Shown here: positions 3,627 to 17,883 of the stretch, one piece after another
Numbering within the stretch: position 1 is the stretch's first letter
Layout: every line of letters begins with the position of its first letter
Origin: an uncultured Gammaproteobacteria bacterium
GTDB lineage: Bacteria > Pseudomonadota > Gammaproteobacteria > Pseudomonadales > Pseudohongiellaceae
Assembly (NCBI GenBank): GCA_913031035.1
Contig: CAJWGN010000020.1
Location: 1-32,930 of the forward strand
Direction of reading: 5' to 3'
Length of the DNA stretch: 32,930 nt
Position numbers and translations under genes: made by a program
Notes under the pieces: generated by a model
Database searches by the model: none
Seen by the model: the letters and a program-made list of their open reading frames with translations, nothing else
Told to the model about the DNA's origin: nothing

Positions 3627-5267
3627 GTGTCTTTTTTATTCCGCCTAGTTAGCATTCTCAATGTTGTCGCCAAGTATCGACTCGGCGAATTTTTGCGCGG
3701 AAAACCAGGTGGGACGGCCATAAGGTTGCTGCTGCTTCCTTTTTCTATGCTATGGCTTTTTTCAAAGCTGAGGTTTGAGTCCAAGGAAGTCAGGCTCAAG
3801 CTGGCTCTGGAAGAATTAGGCCCTATCTATATTAAGCTGGGCCAGCTGCTTTCTACTCGACGAGACTTTTTAGATCCTTTGTTAGCCGATGAGCTGGCCT
3901 CGCTGCAAGACAACGTCCCCCCTTTCAAGACCCCTCCTATCGAATCTATTGTTCTTAAGGCATTGAATATTGATTCTGCGCAGGTCTTCAGTCACCTCGA
4001 CGCCGAACCTTTCGCATCGGCATCCGTCGCCCAGGTGTATGCAGCGACTTTGCACAGCGGCGAAGAAGTTGTCATTAAGATTGTCCGCCCGGGCATTGAG
4101 AAACTAGTAAAGTCAGACATTAAGATACTTAAGTGGCTCGCTAAGCTAATTGAGAACCACACTGACGTCGGAAAAAGACTGCGCCCTATAGAAATCATCA
4201 ATGACTATGAACTTGTTATTCTCGAAGAATTAAACCTTCAATCTGAGGCCGCCAACACCTCAGAGTTAAAAAGAAATTTTGAAGATTCACTTGAATTGTA
4301 TGTGCCGAAAATTTATTGGGACTATGTCTCTCGCGGCACTATGGTAATGGAAAAAATTGATGGCATCCCTGTCTCCGACATCCCTTTATTGAAAGCTCAT
4401 AAGATTAATTTACAAAAACTCGCTGAGACCGGCGTTAACATTTTCTTTACCCAAGTTTTTGAGCACAACTTTTTTCATGCAGACATGCACCCAGGCAATA
4501 TTTTTGTTGCTAAACACAGCCCAGAGAACCCTCAATATATCGCTATAGATTGCGCCATAATTGGCTCGCTAACGGACTCGGACCAGGACTATCTTGCAAA
4601 AAATCTGCTGGCAATGTTGAGACGAGATTACCGCCGCGTTGCACAATTACATGTTGCTTGCGGTTGGGTTCCTAGTGACACTAAAGTCCACGAATTCGAG
4701 TCAGCCATTAGGACCGTGTGCGAACCTATCTTCGAAAAGCCTTTAAAGGAAATTTCGTTTGCTAATCTTTTGCTTGAACTCTTCCGCACAGCGGGCAGGT
4801 TCAAGATGGAGGTTCAGCCGTCATTAGTCTTATTGCAAAAAACACTTCTCAATATTGAAGGCTTAGGCCGACAGCTATACCCTGATTTAGACCTATGGGA
4901 AACGGCCCTGCCTTTCCTAGAAAGATGGCAGGCGAAACGCCTCAGCCCTCTTACACTGTTGAGTAAAATTCGTGACAATTTACCGGAGCTAGTGGAAATG
5001 CTGCCTGAGATTCCCCAGCTTGTAATAGACGCAGCAGCCCAACAAAAACAACTCTCAAATATCAATTCTACGCTTAAATCTGAAATGCTCGCTCGCAGTG
5101 CCTTGGCTCTTCGCTCGCGCCGAAGATCACGAATAACCGGCACAGCGCTGCTCGCTCTAGCCTTAATAAGCACTATTCCTAGCGCGAACCAACTTCTTAA
5201 CAGCATCCCTCTGGTCAGCTTGGGACTTGCTGTAAGCGGACTCTACCTTTTGTGTTTTAGACCTTGA
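3627..5267 (+). CDS. ubiB: UbiB, atypical kinase-like ubiquinone biosynthesis protein
   Basis: Member of the ABC1/ADCK/UbiB protein-kinase-like family, needed for aerobic ubiquinone synthesis. The protein has 546 residues (E. coli 546). Family signatures are the KxGQ motif (K70-Q73, in YIKLGQLLSTRRD), the Ala-rich loop FASASVAQVYA (129-139), the nucleotide-binding Lys in VVIKIVRPG (K151), HADMHPGN, and the DFG-equivalent, which here reads IDCAIIG (Asp308). Two hydrophobic segments near the C-terminus are the expected membrane anchors. The only plausible start is GTG 3627, because an in-frame TAA lies 18 nt upstream; no clear ribosome site is seen. The Ala after DC, where E. coli has Gly, is noted in the findings. 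Confidence 0.96.
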   Translation: MSFLFRLVSILNVVAKYRLGEFLRGKPGGTAIRLLLLPFSMLWLFSKLRFESKEVRLKLALEELGPIYIKLGQLLSTRRDFLDPLLADELASLQDNVPPFKTPPIESIVLKALNIDSAQVFSHLDAEPFASASVAQVYAATLHSGEEVVIKIVRPGIEKLVKSDIKILKWLAKLIENHTDVGKRLRPIEIINDYELVILEELNLQSEAANTSELKRNFEDSLELYVPKIYWDYVSRGTMVMEKIDGIPVSDIPLLKAHKINLQKLAETGVNIFFTQVFEHNFFHADMHPGNIFVAKHSPENPQYIAIDCAIIGSLTDSDQDYLAKNLLAMLRRDYRRVAQLHVACGWVPSDTKVHEFESAIRTVCEPIFEKPLKEISFANLLLELFRTAGRFKMEVQPSLVLLQKTLLNIEGLGRQLYPDLDLWETALPFLERWQAKRLSPLTLLSKIRDNLPELVEMLPEIPQLVIDAAAQQKQLSNINSTLKSEMLARSALALRSRRRSRITGTALLALALISTIPSANQLLNSIPLVSLGLAVSGLYLLCFRP

Positions 5268-9193: not shown

Positions 9194-11020
9194 TTAGCCT
9201 CTAGAGACACTGCCACGGTTGTGACGCTTGCGCTCATTCTCTGTCAAAAACCGCTTACGCAGGCGAATGTTATCTGGCGTCACTTCCACTAGTTCATCAT
9301 CTGCAATAAATTCCATTGCTTGCTCTAACGTATGCTTTACCGAAGGCGAAAGAACGATGTTTTCATCAGTGCCGGACGCTCTAACGTTGGTCAACTGTTT
9401 ACCCTTGATAGGGTTTACCGCAAGGTCATTCTCGCGACTGTGCAGGCCAATAATCATACCCTCGTAAACCTCAACGTTCGGCTCCACGAATAAACGGCCA
9501 CGATCTTGCAGATTGAATAGAGAGAAACCAAGCACTTTACCAGTAACCATCGACACCAGAACTCCGCGGCTTCTACCGGCTAGATCTATGTCTTTATAAT
9601 CACCGTAATGATCAAACACGTGTGTCATCAAACCAGAACCGGATGTCATGCTCAGAAACATCGAGCGAAAGCCAATCAAACCCCTTGTTGGAATAAGAAA
9701 TTGCAATCTAACGCGGCCTTTGCCGTCAGGAAGCATGTCTTGCATCTCAGCACGACGCAGACCTAACTCTTCCATTACCGAACCTTGGTGTTGATCGTTA
9801 CAGTCCACAACCAATGATTCGAAAGGCTCTTTCAAGACACCGTCTTCTTCGTGGATGATAACTTCCGGTCGAGATACGGCAAGCTCGAAACCTTCTCGGC
9901 GCATGCTTTCAATCAAAACGGAAAGGTGTAATTCACCCCGACCTGACACTTTGTACTTGTCAGGTGTTTCACCGGGCTCGACACGCAACGCTACGTTATA
10001 AAGAAGCTCTCGGTCTAAGCGTTCTTTTATCTGGCGCGTCGTAACATATTTACCTTCACGTCCAGCAAAAGGGGAATCGTTTACCTGAAAAGTCATGCTG
10101 ATCGTGGGCTCGTCAACCGACAGCGGCGTCATCGCCTCAGGCCTTTCTGGGTCGCAAACGGTGTCAGAAATATTAAGTTTATCGATACCGGTAATACAGA
10201 CGATTTCACCAGCGCTGGCCTCATCCACATCAATTCTTTCAAGCCCAAGATGGCTTTTTACCTGCAGGATTTTTGCCTTGCGCTGCTTCCCTTCGCGGTC
10301 GATGACGATAACCGGCTGGTTATTGCGTATCTTGCCACGGGTTACCCGTCCAATACCTATAACCCCAACATAGCTGTTGTAATCTAGCGCACTGATCTGC
10401 ATTTGCAGAGGAGAATCGACGACGACATTCGGCGGAGGAACTTTGTCCACGACAACTTCCAGCAGAGGAATCATATCCTCAGCCATCTGATCAATTTCCT
10501 GGCCAGCGAATCCCATCAAGGCAGAGGCATAAATAATCGGAAAATCCAGCTGCTCGTCGGTGGCACCTAGCTTATCAAATAGGTCAAAAACTTCATTAAC
10601 GACCCAGTCTGGTCGGGCGCCATCTCGGTCAACTTTGTTAATTACCACGATAGGGTTTAAGCCTTGGGCAAATGCTTTTTGAGTTACGAACCGAGTTTGA
10701 GGCATAGGGCCATCAACCGCATCGACTAACAAAAGCACACTATCAACCATGGAAAGAACGCGCTCCACTTCGCCACCGAAATCAGCGTGTCCAGGGGTAT
10801 CAACGATGTTAATGTGGTAGCCGTTCCAATTGATTGCCGTGTTCTTGGCTAGAATCGTGATTCCACGTTCCCGTTCCTGATCGTTGGAATCCATCACTCG
10901 CTCTACCTGAGCGCCTCGTGATTCCAGTGTTCCTGATTGATGCAGCAACTTGTCCACCAAGGTTGTTTTACCATGGTCAACGTGGGCAATAATGGCGATG
11001 TTGCGGATTTTTTCTATCAC
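9194..11020 (-). CDS. typA: TypA/BipA ribosome-associated GTPase
   Basis: Translational GTPase related to EF-G and LepA that helps ribosome assembly and stress adaptation. The 608 residues match the family. GTP-binding motifs: G1 AHVDHGKT (12-19), G2 ERGIT (51-55), G3 DTPGH (74-78), G4 NKVD (128-131). The C-terminal domain includes SRGLIGFRS and KLTN-like ([13 protein letters not shown]) segments specific to TypA. The start codon is GTG at 11020, giving [10 protein letters not shown] as in E. coli; the only ribosome-site candidate is a TGGA about 8 nt upstream. It heads the minus-strand typA-pip-dtd group. Confidence 0.97.
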
Positions 11021-11710: not shown

Positions 11711-11757
11711 TGCACCATAATAGACCGCTAATGGCGCGAATGCGCTTTTGTAGTGCC
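11711..11757 (+). promoter_or_regulatory. Two NtrC-like enhancer sites upstream of glnA
   Basis: The distal site TGCACCATAATAGACCG (11711-11727) and proximal site TGCGCTTTTGTAGTGCC (11741-11757) resemble the NtrC dyad TGCAC-N7-GTGCA. Their centres are 30 bp apart, close to the 32 bp at E. coli glnA. They lie at about -125 and -95 from the predicted sigma-54 start. The half-sites are imperfect, but the same layout recurs upstream of ntrB. Confidence 0.6.
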
Positions 11758-11817
11758 CTTGTTGTTGAAGTTTATGACAAGGTCCAGTAAATTCGGCCAT
11801 TGCAGGAAATCAGCCAA

Positions 11818-11833
11818 TGGCATACATCTTGCT
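11818..11833 (+). promoter_or_regulatory. Sigma-54 promoter of glnA
   Basis: TGGCATACATCTTGCT matches the RpoN consensus TGGCACG-N4-TTGCW, with the correct spacing between GG (11819-11820) and GC (11831-11832). Predicted transcription start is about 11844, leaving a leader of about 186 nt before glnA. Confidence 0.75.
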
Positions 11834-12029
11834 GTTTACCCGTAACGATGGCTAATGCCATATAACAAAAGAGTTGGCATCGCTCCGATTCTCAGATGCG
11901 ATAGATGTTGGCGCAGTTTGCCGTGACGATTTAACGAATCAAAAAACCCAGGAACACGCTTAAGGTTAGATTTTCCGCCGAAGTCAGTGTTTAACAAGAA
12001 GTCGTAATTCATTAGGAGAAAGACACGAA

Positions 12030-13043
12030 ATGAAATCTAAACTGGAATACATCTGGCTGGATGGTTATGCACCCACACAAAGCCTTAGAAGCAAGACACA
12101 AGTCAGAGATAACTTTGGCGGTACTTTGGAAGAATGCCCAATGTGGTGTTTCGATGGCAGCTCAACGCAACAAGCCGCCGGAGATGATTCGGATTGCTTA
12201 CTCAAGCCAGTCGCTATCTATCCAGACCCAGACCGTGACAGCTCTTATCTAGTCATGACTGAAGTTTTAAACGCTGACGGCTCGCCTCACATCAGCAATG
12301 GCCGCGCTACCATCGATGATGACGATGAAGATTTTTGGTTCGGTTTTGAGCAAGAATATTTTCTTTGGGACACCAAAACTAATCTTCCTCCTGGTTTTCC
12401 AGCAGGCGGTTATCCTGCACCCCAGGGCCCTTATTACTGTTCAGTAGGTGCTGCTAATTCGTTCGGTCGCGACTGTGTAGAAGAGCATTTTGATATCTGC
12501 CTGGAAGCCGGCATCAACGTTGAAGGCATAAATGCTGAAGTCGCTGCAGGCCAATGGGAATTTCAGGTTTTTGCTAAAGGCGCTAAAGACGCTGGCGACC
12601 AAACCTGGATAGCACGCTACATTCTAGAAAGAACCGGCGAGCGCTACGGTTATTCAATCAATTGGGAGCCTAAGCCACTTGGCAAGGATCTGGATTGGAA
12701 TGGCTCTGGCATGCACGCCAACTTCTCTAACGGACCAATGCGCGATGATGGTGACGAGTCAGTTTTCACAAAGATTTGCGAAAGCTTTGGCAAGAATATA
12801 GAACGTCACATCAGCGTTTATGGCGCCAACAACGAACAACGCCTAACCGGCTTGCACGAAACTCAAGCCATTGACGAGTTCAGCTACGGAGTCTCTGACC
12901 GTGGCGCATCAATTCGCATCCCTATTACTACAGTGGAAGACGGCTGGAAAGGTCGTTTGGAAGACCGAAGAACAGCTTCCAACGCTGATCCGTACAAAGT
13001 TGCGGCTGCGATCATCAAGACTACGAAAGAAGCTCTTGCGTAG
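12030..13043 (+). CDS. Glutamine synthetase, type II (GSII, eukaryote-like)
   Basis: ATP-dependent synthesis of glutamine from glutamate and ammonia. At 337 residues it is far shorter than the usual bacterial GSI (about 470), and its motifs are those of GSII: EYIWLDGY near the N-terminus, MWCFDGSSTQQA, FGFEQEYFLWD (metal/substrate acids E107 and E109), GPYYCSVGA, VEGINAEVAAGQWEFQ, WNGSGMHANFS, and RLTGLHETQAIDEFSYGVSDRGASIRIP near the C-terminus. The GSI adenylylation loop (NLYDLP type, target of GlnE) is absent. AGGAG at 12014-12018 precedes the ATG by 11 nt. It occupies the glnA position upstream of ntrBC behind a sigma-54 promoter and NtrC-like sites, so it is probably a nitrogen-stress-induced ammonia-assimilation enzyme. 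Confidence 0.95.
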   Translation: MKSKLEYIWLDGYAPTQSLRSKTQVRDNFGGTLEECPMWCFDGSSTQQAAGDDSDCLLKPVAIYPDPDRDSSYLVMTEVLNADGSPHISNGRATIDDDDEDFWFGFEQEYFLWDTKTNLPPGFPAGGYPAPQGPYYCSVGAANSFGRDCVEEHFDICLEAGINVEGINAEVAAGQWEFQVFAKGAKDAGDQTWIARYILERTGERYGYSINWEPKPLGKDLDWNGSGMHANFSNGPMRDDGDESVFTKICESFGKNIERHISVYGANNEQRLTGLHETQAIDEFSYGVSDRGASIRIPITTVEDGWKGRLEDRRTASNADPYKVAAAIIKTTKEALA

Positions 13044-13149
13044 TGCAAAAGAGCAGATTGAGTTTGGGGTGTTGGCTAGTTGATGTCAGCGTTTTTGTTT
13101 GCACACCCATAGGCTAAACCTAAGAACTCAGACTGCAATCAGATTAGAA

Positions 13150-13176
13150 AGGCCCGGTGATCCGGGCTTTTTTTTT
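13150..13176 (+). terminator. Rho-independent terminator after the glutamine synthetase gene
   Basis: GCCCGG (13152-13157) pairs with CCGGGC (13162-13167) around TGAT, followed by nine T (13168-13176). Strong, well formed, 106 nt after the stop. Confidence 0.9.
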
Positions 13177-13348
13177 GCCTAGGGTCATGAATTTGTACAG
13201 ATCTTGCTACCTATCGGTTACCCTTTTTTTGCAATCAAGCCTGCAGATTACCCGGGCACTCTCTCATACCGACTAACCTTTCCTAACTTTTCTCAACTTC
13301 CTGCACGTGCACTTCCATGGACTTAAGTTCTTTGCCGCACCTCAATAA

Positions 13349-13395
13349 TGCACTATTATAGGGCGTAAGTTTGGAATCCGAATCATAGCGGTGCC
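13349..13395 (+). promoter_or_regulatory. Two NtrC-like sites upstream of ntrB
   Basis: The distal site TGCACTATTATAGGGCG (13349-13365) matches the distal glnA site at 13 of 17 positions. The proximal region 13379-13395 carries one good half-site (GCGGTGCC). Centres are at about -125 and -95 from the predicted ntrB start, the same distances as at glnA. Confidence 0.5.
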
Positions 13396-13455
13396 CGCAA
13401 GGCATTTTATCTCCATAAACCTGCCGCAAACCTACTGATTCGGCATGCACAGTTT

Positions 13456-13471
13456 TGGTTTGCTTTTTGCA
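13456..13471 (+). promoter_or_regulatory. Sigma-54 promoter candidate of ntrBC
   Basis: TGGTTTGCTTTTTGCA has the invariant GG (13457-13458) and GC (13469-13470) at RpoN spacing and a perfect TTTTTGCA -12 half; the -24 half is weaker (TGGTTTG). Predicted start is about 13482, 44 nt before ntrB. Confidence 0.6.
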
Positions 13472-13525: not shown

Positions 13526-14626
13526 GTGAACCTAGACAATGTACATAAACGCCTACTCGACACGTTGAAAACCGCGGTGATTCTTCTCGACGAAAATTTG
13601 TGTCTGCTCTATATCAACATGGCCGCCGAGACCCTGCTCGACATCAGTAACCGCCAGGCTAAGAACTGCTTTATTGGCGATTTATTTTTGAACGCCGCAG
13701 CAGATATCAATGAAATACAGGCCGCGCTTGCAAACGAGAGGAGTATCACTAGACGCAAGGCCGAGCTGCGCACATTCCACAACAAAGCAATTGTTGTGGA
13801 CTACACAATCAGTCCGTTTGATGAAAATGGGGAAATTCAAGCTTTAATAGAGCTCAACTCTTTAGAGCACACCCATCGAATAAGCCGAGAGGAAACTTTG
13901 CACTCGGCTCACGCAACGACTCAGGAATTAGTGCGGGGCTTGGCCCACGAAATTAAAAATCCCCTGGGCGGAATCCGAGGTGCGGCGCAGTTACTAGCGA
14001 GGGAAATTCCAGGTGATGAGCTTAATGAATATACCAACGTTATTATTGAGGAAGCCGACAGACTTCGAAACCTTGTCGATCGACTCGTTGGCTCGAAAAA
14101 ACCCTTAGACAAAAAAGAGATCAACATTCATGAAGTACTGGAGCGAGTTCGTAGTTTAGTCACCGCGGAAATCGCAGACCAAAATATTTCAGGCATCGAA
14201 TTAGTCCAAGACTACGATCCAAGCATCCCAACGATCGCCGCTGATGCTGAACAATTGATTCAAGCTGTGCTAAATCTTGTAAGAAACGCGATGCAATCCT
14301 TAACCAGTCCTGACATAGAACACAACCTAGGCAAGATTATCCTTCGCTCTAGGATCATACGAAATTCAACCATCGATTCTAAGTTTCACCGCTTGGCGGC
14401 AAGTATCGAGATCATCGACAACGGCCCAGGAGTTCCGGCTAACCTCATTGACACAATTTTCTATCCGATGATTAGCGGTCGCGCTGACGGTACTGGGTTG
14501 GGTTTATCAATTTCCCACGGAATAATAAATCAACATGATGGCATGATTGAATGCCGAAGCGATCAGACAGAAACAAAATTTACAATAGTACTACCCCTTG
14601 AACCAACTGCAGTAAAATCTGCGTAA
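13526..14626 (+). CDS. ntrB: NtrB, nitrogen-sensing histidine kinase
   Basis: Cytoplasmic two-component kinase/phosphatase that sets the phosphorylation of NtrC in response to PII. 366 residues (E. coli GlnL 349). An N-terminal PAS domain (about 5-110) is followed by the dimerisation and phospho-acceptor motif LVRGLAHEIKNPLGGIRGAA with His141. The ATPase domain has the N-box VLNLVRNAMQSL, the G1 box DNGPGVP, and GRADGTGLGLSIS (G2). No membrane segments, as expected for NtrB. GTG start without a strong ribosome site. It precedes ntrC by 36 nt and is probably transcribed with it from the sigma-54 candidate upstream. Confidence 0.96.
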   Translation: MNLDNVHKRLLDTLKTAVILLDENLCLLYINMAAETLLDISNRQAKNCFIGDLFLNAAADINEIQAALANERSITRRKAELRTFHNKAIVVDYTISPFDENGEIQALIELNSLEHTHRISREETLHSAHATTQELVRGLAHEIKNPLGGIRGAAQLLAREIPGDELNEYTNVIIEEADRLRNLVDRLVGSKKPLDKKEINIHEVLERVRSLVTAEIADQNISGIELVQDYDPSIPTIAADAEQLIQAVLNLVRNAMQSLTSPDIEHNLGKIILRSRIIRNSTIDSKFHRLAASIEIIDNGPGVPANLIDTIFYPMISGRADGTGLGLSISHGIINQHDGMIECRSDQTETKFTIVLPLEPTAVKSA

Positions 14627-14662
14627 CCCGTTTTATGGGTTAAAGAAAAGGTGTACCTAAAC

Positions 14663-16102
14663 ATGGCCAATCACAATTCCGTCTGGATACTTGACGACGA
14701 CCGTTCAATTCGTTGGGTGTTAGAGAAATCACTTACTAAAACCGGGCTCAGTACCGAAACTTTTGAGAACGGCGACCAGTTGCTGCACCGGCTCGCTCAT
14801 GAATTACCTGACGCTATTATCAGTGATATTCGAATGCCTGGAATCAACGGACTCGATTTGCTATCCACTATTCAGGAAAAGCATCCGCTACTGCCAGTCA
14901 TTATAATGACTGCTCATTCTGATTTGGACAGCGCTGTTTCGTCCTATAGTCGCGGCGCTTTTGAGTATTTGCCAAAGCCTTTCGACATTGATGAGGCGGT
15001 CGCTGTCACCAAACGCGCATTGCAACATTCGAAAGAGCAAAGCAGCGGCCCGGCAGAAGAAGCTCCTATAAAAGATCAAGAAATCATCGGCGAAGCGCCA
15101 GCTATGCAGGAAGTATTCCGAGCAATTGGCCGGCTCTCCCAGTCTAATATCTCGGTATTAATCAACGGTGAGTCTGGCACCGGCAAGGAACTAGTTGCCC
15201 ATGCCCTTCACCGCCACAGCCCTCGCAGCAAACAGCCTTTTATCCCTTTAAACGTCGCGGCAATCCCGAAAGAGCTTATTGAATCGGAATTGTTCGGTCA
15301 CGAAAAAGGCGCCTTCACTGGCGCCACCTCCCAGCGTACTGGCCGCTTTGAGCAAGCTGATGGGGGCACTTTGTTTTTAGATGAAATCGGCGATATGCCA
15401 GCAGAAACTCAAACCAGACTATTGCGAGTGTTGTCCGATGGCGAATTTTACCGTGTTGGCGGCCATATCTCGATCAAAGTAGACGTGCGCATTATTGCAG
15501 CAACACATCAAAACTTAGAACAACTAGTAGAAAAGCATTTGTTCCGAGAAGACCTTTTTCACCGTCTCAATGTGATCCGCATTCACATACCAAAACTCGC
15601 CGATCGCCGCGAAGACATCCCAACTCTTGCATCATATTTTTTGAAGTCGGCCGCGAAAGAGTTAGATATGGAACCCAAGGTTCTCAGACCAGAAACTGAA
15701 ATCTATCTAACCGGTCTTAGCTGGCCTGGCAATGTTAGGCAATTGGAAAACTTTTGCCGCTGGGTCACGGTTATGGCCTCCAGTCGCGAAGTCTATATGA
15801 CAGATCTACCTCCAGAGTTTTCGGCGCAAGAAGCCCAGAGCAGCAACACTGGCAGCTGGACGTTTGCTCTTCAGGCTTGGGCTGACCAGCAATTAAGTCT
15901 GGGTAATACCGGCATTCTTGACCAAGCTACACCGCTGTTCGAACGCACTCTGATTGATATAGCCCTGAAGCACACCTCAGGCCGGCGTAGAGACGCTGCC
16001 AATCTTTTAGGCTGGGGACGAAACACATTGACTCGCAAGATCAAGGAACTAGGCTCATCTCACCCTAAAAGCACTGATTCAAGCCCTGACTTAGACGACT
16101 AA
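14663..16102 (+). CDS. ntrC: NtrC, sigma-54-dependent nitrogen response regulator
   Basis: Response regulator that, when phosphorylated by NtrB, activates sigma-54 promoters. ATG 14663 (479 aa) is chosen; an in-frame GTG at 14651 adds four residues, but AAAGGTG at 14647-14653 is well spaced as the ribosome site for the ATG. Receiver domain: phospho-acceptor Asp55 in IISDIRMPG. AAA+ domain: Walker A GESGTGKE (169-176), sigma-54 contact loop GAFTGA (216-221), and GGTLFLDEIGDMP (Walker B). The C-terminal Fis-type helix-turn-helix ends in LLGWGRNTLTRKIKELG, nearly identical to enteric NtrC, so its DNA target should resemble the known NtrC site. A terminator follows. Confidence 0.97.
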   Translation: MANHNSVWILDDDRSIRWVLEKSLTKTGLSTETFENGDQLLHRLAHELPDAIISDIRMPGINGLDLLSTIQEKHPLLPVIIMTAHSDLDSAVSSYSRGAFEYLPKPFDIDEAVAVTKRALQHSKEQSSGPAEEAPIKDQEIIGEAPAMQEVFRAIGRLSQSNISVLINGESGTGKELVAHALHRHSPRSKQPFIPLNVAAIPKELIESELFGHEKGAFTGATSQRTGRFEQADGGTLFLDEIGDMPAETQTRLLRVLSDGEFYRVGGHISIKVDVRIIAATHQNLEQLVEKHLFREDLFHRLNVIRIHIPKLADRREDIPTLASYFLKSAAKELDMEPKVLRPETEIYLTGLSWPGNVRQLENFCRWVTVMASSREVYMTDLPPEFSAQEAQSSNTGSWTFALQAWADQQLSLGNTGILDQATPLFERTLIDIALKHTSGRRRDAANLLGWGRNTLTRKIKELGSSHPKSTDSSPDLDD

Positions 16103-16718: not shown

Positions 16719-17000
16719 TTAATTGCCAGGCTCAACGTTAGGCGCCTCGACCAAATGCAAATTGTAATCTTTTGGGTTGAGGACAAAGCTGCACTGAGTT
16801 CCCTCCATTTCGTACTCTTTCACCAAATCCTCAAGTATTGCCGCAGCCTCTGTTGGCGATGCTAAAGGCACTCTTTTACAGTTGAGCATAAAAGGGGATC
16901 CACCTCTTTGATCCACATGAGCAAGCACAAGCTGATCGGACTGCACCATAAGTCCAACTCGGCCTGTCGCCTTTGTTTTTTTCTTCAAAAACTGAAGCAT
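16719..17000 (-). pseudogene. Truncated MshI-like (MSHA pilus biogenesis) N-terminal fragment
   Basis: An ORF of 93 residues resembling the first part of MshI, a PilM/actin-like component of the MSHA type IV pilus machinery. The visible pattern is a basic start (MLQFLKKKTK), GRVGLMVQSDQLVLAHV, a middle region ending in EYEMEGTQCSFVLNPKDYNLHLVEAPNV, and then a stop after EPGN. In the family this last motif is followed by an EEL..A.RW..KDLI segment and a long remainder, which is missing here. No other msh gene is nearby. It could be a decayed gene or a small protein still in use. The family assignment rests on motif recall, not on a search. Start ATG at 17000; three 11-bp repeats lie just upstream. 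Confidence 0.55.
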
Positions 17001-17418: not shown

Positions 17419-17883
17419 TTGATCAACATCGTTCTTTTCGAACCAGAAATACCCCCTAACACGGGAAATATTATCCGATTAGCAGCAAATACAGGCTCAC
17501 AGCTTCATTTAATCAAACCTTTTGGTTTTGAGCTTGATGATAAGCGCATGCGCCGAGCGGGACTGGATTATCACGAGTTTGCAGGCATCACAATCTATGA
17601 TAATTGGGAGGATTTTAAAGAAGTTAACGCCAAGTCACGCCTTTTTGGCATTTCCACAAAGGGCCGCAGCAATTACACTGAAATTAAATATGAAAAAGGG
17701 GATTTTTTGGTGTTCGGGCCTGAAACGCGCGGCTTACCGGATTCTATAAGGGATGAATTAGGCCCTGAAAGCCTCGTTCGAATACCCATGCTGCCTGAAA
17801 GCAGAAGCCTTAACCTGTCTAATGCCGCGGCTGTCTTAGTGTACGAAGCTTGGCATCAGCTAGGCTTCGAGTCGGGCCTTTAA
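17419..17883 (+). CDS. trmL: TrmL, tRNA (cytidine/uridine-34 2'-O)-methyltransferase
   Basis: SPOUT-family enzyme that 2'-O-methylates the wobble base of tRNA-Leu isoacceptors. 154 residues (E. coli 157). The family sequence is clear: IVLFEPEIPPNTGNIIRLAA at the N-terminus, KRMRRAGLDYHEF, the SAM-binding trefoil-knot segments FGPETRGLP and RIPMLPESRSLNLSNAAAV, and the VYEAWHQLG end. The start appears to be TTG at 17419, since the protein begins exactly at the conserved INIVLFEPEIP; GAGTGG about 9 nt upstream may be the ribosome site. Confidence 0.96.
   Translation: MINIVLFEPEIPPNTGNIIRLAANTGSQLHLIKPFGFELDDKRMRRAGLDYHEFAGITIYDNWEDFKEVNAKSRLFGISTKGRSNYTEIKYEKGDFLVFGPETRGLPDSIRDELGPESLVRIPMLPESRSLNLSNAAAVLVYEAWHQLGFESGL

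Follow-up and report, generated by a model that had tools for sequence, protein, structure and literature searches.

Probable displacement of type I by type II glutamine synthetase at a gammaproteobacterial glnA-ntrBC locus

The synthetase of the locus

In the window, i.e. the whole stretch of 32,930 nucleotides analysed here (contig C20 of the 3.96 Mb, 307-contig draft assembly G000, which is 92.5% complete), a glutamine synthetase gene is followed by ntrB and ntrC. The original prediction held that the synthetase gene and ntrB share one NtrC/sigma-54 geometry, and that NtrC drives both the synthetase and itself. The locus raises the questions of whether this shared geometry is meaningful and which class of synthetase the NtrC system would control here. 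As listed in Table 1, the order of a glnALG locus (typA, synthetase, ntrB, ntrC) was found. The synthetase was similar over its full length to glutamine synthetases of approximately 340-380 aa with solved structures, and both PF03951 and PF00120 scored above their cut-offs. Its best solved relative was 4bax (E 1.3e-94, residues 3-335), which we take to be a type II enzyme. With the type I (GSI) model TIGR00653 it reached 55 bits against a cut-off of 429, and it was not identified as the GSI of a glnALG operon. The match to NF041605, the GlnII equivalog, extended over the full length at 383.6 bits, under the curated cut-off of 500, and the protein was therefore assigned to the eukaryote-like type II class (GSII) only, not to the GlnII equivalog. 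The original prediction had missed that a type II enzyme stands in the place of GSI, and that neither GSI nor GlnE was found in the genome.

An Rfam search at gathering thresholds gave no match between 8000 and 18600. In the gap between ntrC and trmL, a 93-aa ORF (16719-17000, minus strand) had no NCBIfam match; a 44% relative of it lies at L190:3708-3965, in a sister genus.

Table 1. Features of the typA-GSII-ntrBC locus, in positions of the window
Feature	Position	Strand	Remark
typA/bipA	9194..11020	-	divergent from GSII; anchors the glnA locus on the left; TIGR01394 931 bits (cut-off 757)
Distal NtrC-like site of GSII, TGCACCATAATAGACCG	11711..11727	+	8/12; centred 99 bp before the first -24 base
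Proximal NtrC-like site of GSII, TGCGCTTTTGTAGTGCC	11741..11757	+	8/12; centred 69 bp before the first -24 base
Predicted sigma-54 -24/-12 element of GSII, TGGCATACATCTTGCT	11818..11833	+	11/12; no other window site reaches 11 on either strand
Predicted 5' leader of GSII	11844..12029	+	start placed from the -12 element; conserved block at the ribosome-binding site (alignment A1, 17 leaders)
GSII, type II glutamine synthetase, 337 aa	12030..13043	+	single PF00120 match of the genome
Intrinsic-terminator-like hairpin and T run, GSII/ntrB gap	13151..13177	+	hairpin scan across relatives
Further NtrC-like 17-mer, CGCACCTCAATAATGCA	13336..13352	+	9/12; overlaps the distal ntrB site
Distal NtrC-like site of ntrB, TGCACTATTATAGGGCG	13349..13365	+	8/12; degenerate counterpart of the relatives' palindrome TGCACTATTATGGTGCA or near forms (alignment)
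Proximal NtrC-like sequence of ntrB, CGAATCATAGCGGTGCC	13379..13395	+	8/12; doubtful, not conserved
Predicted sigma-54 -24/-12 element of ntrB, TGGTTTGCTTTTTGCA	13456..13471	+	9/12; TGGTTTGNTTATTGCA or similar in many relatives
ntrB (NR(II))	13526..14626	+	NF008293 358.2 bits (cut-off 240)
ntrC (NR(I))	14651..16102	+	TIGR01818 744.7 bits (cut-off 558.6)
trmL	17419..17883	+	right anchor of the locus; TIGR00185 205.9 bits (cut-off 190.6)

Predicted promoters of GSII and ntrB

The sigma-54 elements were scored over 12 consensus positions, with GG and GC obligatory. Both RpoN-type elements were present where they had been predicted, and the two distal 17-mers were identical at 13 of 17 positions, as claimed; the two proximal 17-mers were alike at 8 of 17. 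The site centres lie 125 and 95 bp upstream when counted from the predicted transcription starts (~11844 and ~13482), but not when counted from the start codons, from which the distances are 311/281 bp for GSII and 169/139 bp for ntrB. The GSII element was a near-consensus GG-N10-GC element and the only one of its score in the window. The ntrB element at 13456 was one of 16 window sites scoring 9/12, and is thus unremarkable alone. The consensus of the paired NtrC boxes is given as TGCACCAnnnTGGTGCA in the accessible part of a published account (PMC8743547). NtrC-like scores across the window amounted to 8 at 58 positions and 9 at 11 positions, with none higher, and all four claimed sites scored 8/12. 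In dinucleotide shuffles, two shared NtrC distances (99 bp and 69 bp, measured from each -24 element) were obtained in 0 of 20,000 and one shared distance in 41, and a 13/17 identity at equal offset was obtained in 0 of 3,000; since the score threshold was set after the sites had been seen, the true chance is higher than these counts. As a positive control, identical scoring of E. coli glnA gave its sigma-54 element 11/12, and the NtrC sites at 114 and 82 bp upstream received 11 and 10 of 12.

The same-genus set comprised 37 rows including the window, of which 3 were unusable; the 33 other loci came from 32 genomes (G012 twice). The GSII sigma-54 element was present in all 34 usable loci, window included, at 11/12 in 28 and 12/12 in 6. 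Among the 33 other loci, a distal NtrC site (8 or more, 97-103 bp) was found in 25 and a proximal one (8 or more, 67-73 bp) in 24, compared with 0 to 4 of 33 in control bands. Paired NtrC boxes upstream of GSII are weak in the window (8/12) and positionally conserved in its relatives. In a wider set of 56 loci that matched both GSII and NtrB, window included, the element scored 10-12 in 53 of the 53 with enough upstream sequence; at L125, which has an assembly gap, a sigma-54 match far upstream of GSII is uninformative. The strong conservation supports the prediction that GSII is under NtrC/sigma-54 control.

Two further stretches upstream of GSII showed conservation. A CCAGTAAA...TTGCAG stretch at 11784-11806, downstream of the NtrC sites and ahead of the sigma-54 element, was partly conserved in the genus. 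Just before the GSII start (11998-12020), a block aligned with GTAGTCG...ATCGATTAGGAGA of relatives and was conserved in 17 genus leaders; it is possibly a translational or small-RNA target.

The promoter of ntrB showed a different pattern of conservation. A sigma-54 element was found upstream of ntrB in 25 of 34 same-genus loci, window included; the nine lacking it were L089, L093, L106 and six loci of one subgroup. In the wider set, the ntrB promoter was absent from 7 of 56 loci, all of one subgroup (L043, L110, L120-L124), which suggests that ntrB is co-transcribed with GSII there. Of the 24 other same-genus loci having the element, 21 carried an NtrC site of 8 or more at 89-112 bp, but just 7 carried one at 97-103 bp. 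The proximal site (8 or more, 67-73 bp) was present in 2 of 24, which is background (control bands 0 to 3 of 24), and it is likely a chance match. In an alignment of the window with 18 relatives, the distal site of the window proved to be a degenerate version of the relatives' palindrome, which reads TGCACTATTATGGTGCA or a near form of it. Moreover, a hairpin of -9 kcal/mol or lower before a T run lies upstream of ntrB in 34 of 44 genus-like loci, window included. A separate predicted sigma-54 promoter with an NtrC site before ntrB is supported by the presence of the element in most same-genus loci and by its recurrence in sister genera and in family f47, which makes positive autoregulation by NtrC probable.

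It could be argued that the GSII sites are real and that the ntrB pair is a chance occurrence, ntrBC being transcribed in some other way. The modest score of the ntrB element, its proximal site at background level and the subgroup without any ntrB promoter fit such a case. Against it, both the element and the distal palindrome can be aligned throughout the genus, and they recur in 3/3 g24, 4/6 g23 and 4/4 f47 loci with NtrB; we regard chance as an improbable source of the ntrB pair. The broader notion that all the motif pairs are due to chance was rejected for the GSII pair, the ntrB -24/-12 element and the ntrB distal site.

The matching spacing had been offered as evidence that the sites are real. 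This argument failed, because the GSII spacing is kept whereas the ntrB spacing drifts among same-genus loci and the ntrB proximal site is not conserved. Equal spacing as a shared design was rejected; the exact match in geometry is thus a local trait of this genome. The NtrC loop itself fared better: NtrC control of GSII is supported by conservation, and the ntrB element and distal site recur in relatives. Alignment across related genomes, which had been proposed as a check, upheld the GSII sites, the ntrB element and the ntrB distal site and spoke against the ntrB proximal site.

The exact palindrome TGCAC-N7-GTGCA occurs as a single copy in the whole 3.96 Mb assembly. Within 450 bp upstream of GSII or ntrB, it was found in 29 of 44 genus-like loci, window counted. 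The NtrC sites seem to be eroded in the window species, and their weak scores together with the single exact palindrome suggest that NtrC control may be feeble there. An altered NtrC specificity was rejected as the reason for the weak sites, since the C-terminal helix of NtrC (GWGRNTLTRKIKEL) is unchanged from that of most aligned relatives.

GSI, GlnE and the history of GSII in the order

Apart from the sub-cut-off score of GSII itself, a TIGR00653 search of the draft genome gave no match to GSI. The PF03710 search for GlnE gave no match in the draft either, and an adenylylation cascade was not found in it; the E. coli, Caulobacter and Corynebacterium controls were positive. As the draft is 92.5% complete, these absences are not proof. 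The genome retains GlnD, PII, AmtB, NtrBC and sigma-54, and two of its PII genes lie beside ammonium transporters. A third PII-like protein of this genome, at L202:2120-2479 (minus strand), is weak (29 bits). Among the 37 genomes of the genus, the window's included, GSII was found in 36, GSI above cut-off in one (G002) and GlnD above cut-off in 35.

The pairing of GSI with GlnE was tallied over 90 genomes of the order (58 + 32), in which GSI was counted if over the cut-off or present as a contig-edge fragment (G038, G242), and GlnE if one domain exceeded 100 bits. GlnE was present in 38 of the 39 genomes with GSI, and full GlnE in none of the 51 without it. The exception to the pairing was G002, which has GSI and GSII but no GlnE. 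Fisher's test gave 1e-24 for the association, a value that ignores the kinship of the genomes and stands on few independent contrasts. One such contrast is g1 against g23 and g24 within one family; another lies in f13, where four GSII-only genomes (70-91% complete) stand against G048 (GSI and GlnE) and G242 (GSII, a GSI fragment and GlnE). Furthermore, neither GSI over the cut-off nor a full GlnE was found in the nine genomes with GSII that were sampled from f25 and f40.

Several weaker matches were seen alongside this tally. G008 has an 81-bit GlnE fragment at a contig edge. Five genomes gave weak GlnE matches (G017, G020, G021, G032 and G140). The two that were scanned, in G020 and G140, were rejected as GlnE; they are fusions of approximately 790 aa (L204:2123-4483, minus strand, and L205:1777-4167, plus strand) of a fatty-acid desaturase domain with a GlnE-like nucleotidyltransferase region. 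In G040 (family f5), GSI, GSII and GlnE were all missing; a frame of 760 aa there, which matched GS weakly, is possibly a type III enzyme. The GSI of G002 (G002:C28:3496-4878, L191) is 55% identical to sister-genus GSI and lies on a contig of 7.6 kb in which neither typA nor ntrBC was matched; it is either a contaminant or a recent gain.

The sister genera g23 and g24, of the same family, present the alternative state. None of the nine listed genomes of these genera had GSII at E 1e-60 or better, and all nine had both GSI and GlnE. In all nine, GSI lies beside ntrB/ntrC with typA on the other side, approximately 2 kb away in seven and approximately 6 kb in L187 and L217. Their GSI promoters carry NtrC sites of 8 or more at 99-101 and 69-71 bp in 5 of 6 g23 and 2 of 3 g24 loci, the exceptions being L217 (111/81) and L188, with its only site at 70. 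These sister-genus GSI promoters and the GSII promoter of the window's genus are of one form.

For transfer and INTERMEDIATES, the window was compared with the loci outside the genus in the GSII clade: identities were 82-88% for GSII, 64-74% for TypA, 39-47% for NtrB and 63-69% for NtrC. Within the genus and the near named loci, they were 79-90% for TypA, 73-84% for NtrC and 80-88% for GSII. The excess of GSII over TypA identity outside the genus points to horizontal transfer of GSII alone. A GSII tree of 132 rows, built by a quick method with SH-aLRT support only and with 47 of its 128 inner branches open, placed the genus rows in one cluster of 43 (support 93). A neighbouring cluster of 21 (support 93) held f13, f40 g42, Porticoccaceae and others, mostly beside ntrBC or typA, and the two clusters joined at 64 rows with a support of 90. 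GSII of f47, f29, f25 and f40 g79 fell elsewhere in the tree.

The joint cluster of 64 rows, which unites the genus with other ntrBC-linked GSII, would also suit a history without any GSII transfer, in which the ancestor of the order already had GSII at glnA, and GSI together with GlnE was either kept at another place or gained anew. Such a history is hard to reconcile with sister genera of the same family that have GSI at the identical place, with a GSII far more alike across genera than TypA, NtrB or NtrC, and with the restriction of GSII (E 1e-60 or better) to 25 of 293 genomes sampled from the order; we consider it very unlikely.

Whether the incoming GSII was placed under the resident glnA promoter or brought an NtrC/sigma-54 promoter of its own is harder to judge. 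The divergent GSI/GSII loci L011 and L039 each carry a separate sigma-54 element for GSII, and its NtrC sites lie at 99/68 and 109/69 bp. Outside the motifs, moreover, the enhancers of the genus were no closer to those of sister-genus GSI (mean z 1.9 and 1.0) than to those of f40 g42 GSII (1.6) or of other outside loci (2.0). On the other hand, the 99-100/69-70 spacing of the genus equals that of sister-genus GSI, while the spacing is 108-109/68-69 at the three GSII loci of f40 g42, which belong to the same clade, and varies among the other outside loci. An own promoter that travelled with GSII is thus a serious possibility, to which we assign somewhat less than an even chance.

Loci that hold both enzymes look like intermediates of the displacement. 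GSII and GSI are in tandem in G242 (arranged like L006), G173, L013 and L041, and divergent in L011, L023, L039, f47 and f29; both genes have typA on one side and ntrB on the other in L011, L023, L039, L184 and L219. In L011, a Halieaceae MAG, the divergent pair (4000-4500) has outward sigma-54 promoters at 4113 (minus) and 4338 (plus), which share two NtrC sites 31 bp apart (centres 4239 and 4270); this NtrC pair looks like one bidirectional enhancer. In the three f13 loci with GSII and ntrBC that were mapped, the mapped stretch contained no typA, and GSII adjoined neither typA nor ntrB in any of the six f25 and f40 g79 loci. Some losses of GSI therefore came about otherwise than by a swap at the locus itself.

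Proposed control and comparison with known systems

Our reading of the locus, which we hold with considerable confidence, is that GSI of a typA-glnA-ntrB-ntrC locus was displaced by a horizontally acquired GSII under a glnA-type NtrC/sigma-54 promoter, and that GlnE was lost and control moved to transcription. It draws on the sites and their conservation, the order of the locus, the absence of GSI and GlnE from the draft, the presence of GlnD, PII, NtrBC and RpoN, and the discordant similarity of GSII. GlnE acts on GSI by adenylylation, and once GSI was gone GlnE would have been without a substrate, which presumably led to its loss; control of ammonia assimilation would have passed from modification of the enzyme by GlnE to transcription by NtrC. 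In the Ntr system as outlined in the accessible part of a rhizobial report (PMC5127829), GlnD uridylylates PII at low nitrogen, NtrB phosphorylates NtrC, and NtrC-P activates sigma-54 promoters. By this route, when nitrogen is short, GlnD and PII would let NtrB phosphorylate NtrC in the window species. NtrC would bind its two sites, which lie 99 and 69 bp ahead of the -24 element with approximately 30 bp between them, and activate the sigma-54 polymerase at GSII. At the second promoter, located after the terminator, it would raise ntrBC transcription in a positive feedback.

Over the order as a whole, we lean towards a horizontally spreading GSII that entered the glnA-ntrBC locus more than once and, by way of loci with both genes (GSII+GSI), took the place of GSI; every swap that ran to completion would have removed GlnE and left NtrC as the main control. 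Control of GS by GlnE is the textbook cascade of regulation by covalent modification. A lineage that kept GlnD, PII and NtrBC, exchanged the enzyme class and dropped the modifier would show which half of this cascade is dispensable, with the promoter layout kept.

The locus resembles the enterobacterial glnA-glnL-glnG (glnALG) locus, in which typA (bipA) is likewise divergent and the synthetase gene is followed by ntrB and ntrC. E. coli glnA, too, combines a sigma-54 element with a pair of NtrC sites, spaced by 32 bp. However, E. coli has GSI and GlnE, whereas GSII and no GlnE were found here, and the 300 bp upstream of its glnL hold no GG-N10-GC site, whereas ntrB of the window has its own predicted sigma-54 element. 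The predicted transcription of GSII through NtrC-P and RpoN is like that of rhizobial glnII; in the accessible part of the S. meliloti report, glnII is a direct NtrC target and GSII is controlled mainly at transcription, which fits the mechanism proposed here (PMC5127829). Unlike the rhizobia, in which GSII is second to GSI with GlnE, the window's genome has GSII as the only GS found, at the glnA-ntrBC locus.

As far as these partly accessible sources go, NtrC control of GSII (PMC5127829) and adjacent GSI/GSII pairs (PMC1821046) are already known. Titles and abstract openings, from a partial coverage of the literature, contained no description of GSII taking the place of GSI at glnA together with a loss of GlnE, which is not proof of novelty. 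The Global Ocean Sampling survey of 2007 recorded abundant type II GS in marine bacteria and called the reason unclear; its accessible part lists a signal transduction histidine kinase among the neighbours and 19 adjacent type I/type II pairs (PMC1821046). Replacement at glnA, promoters and loss of GlnE are not reported in that part of the survey (PMC1821046). The swap described here bears on the survey's question of the abundance of type II GS at sea and of side-by-side type I and type II genes (PMC1821046). If repeated swaps did take place, they would help to explain both that abundance in ocean bacteria and the adjacent GSI-GSII pairs.
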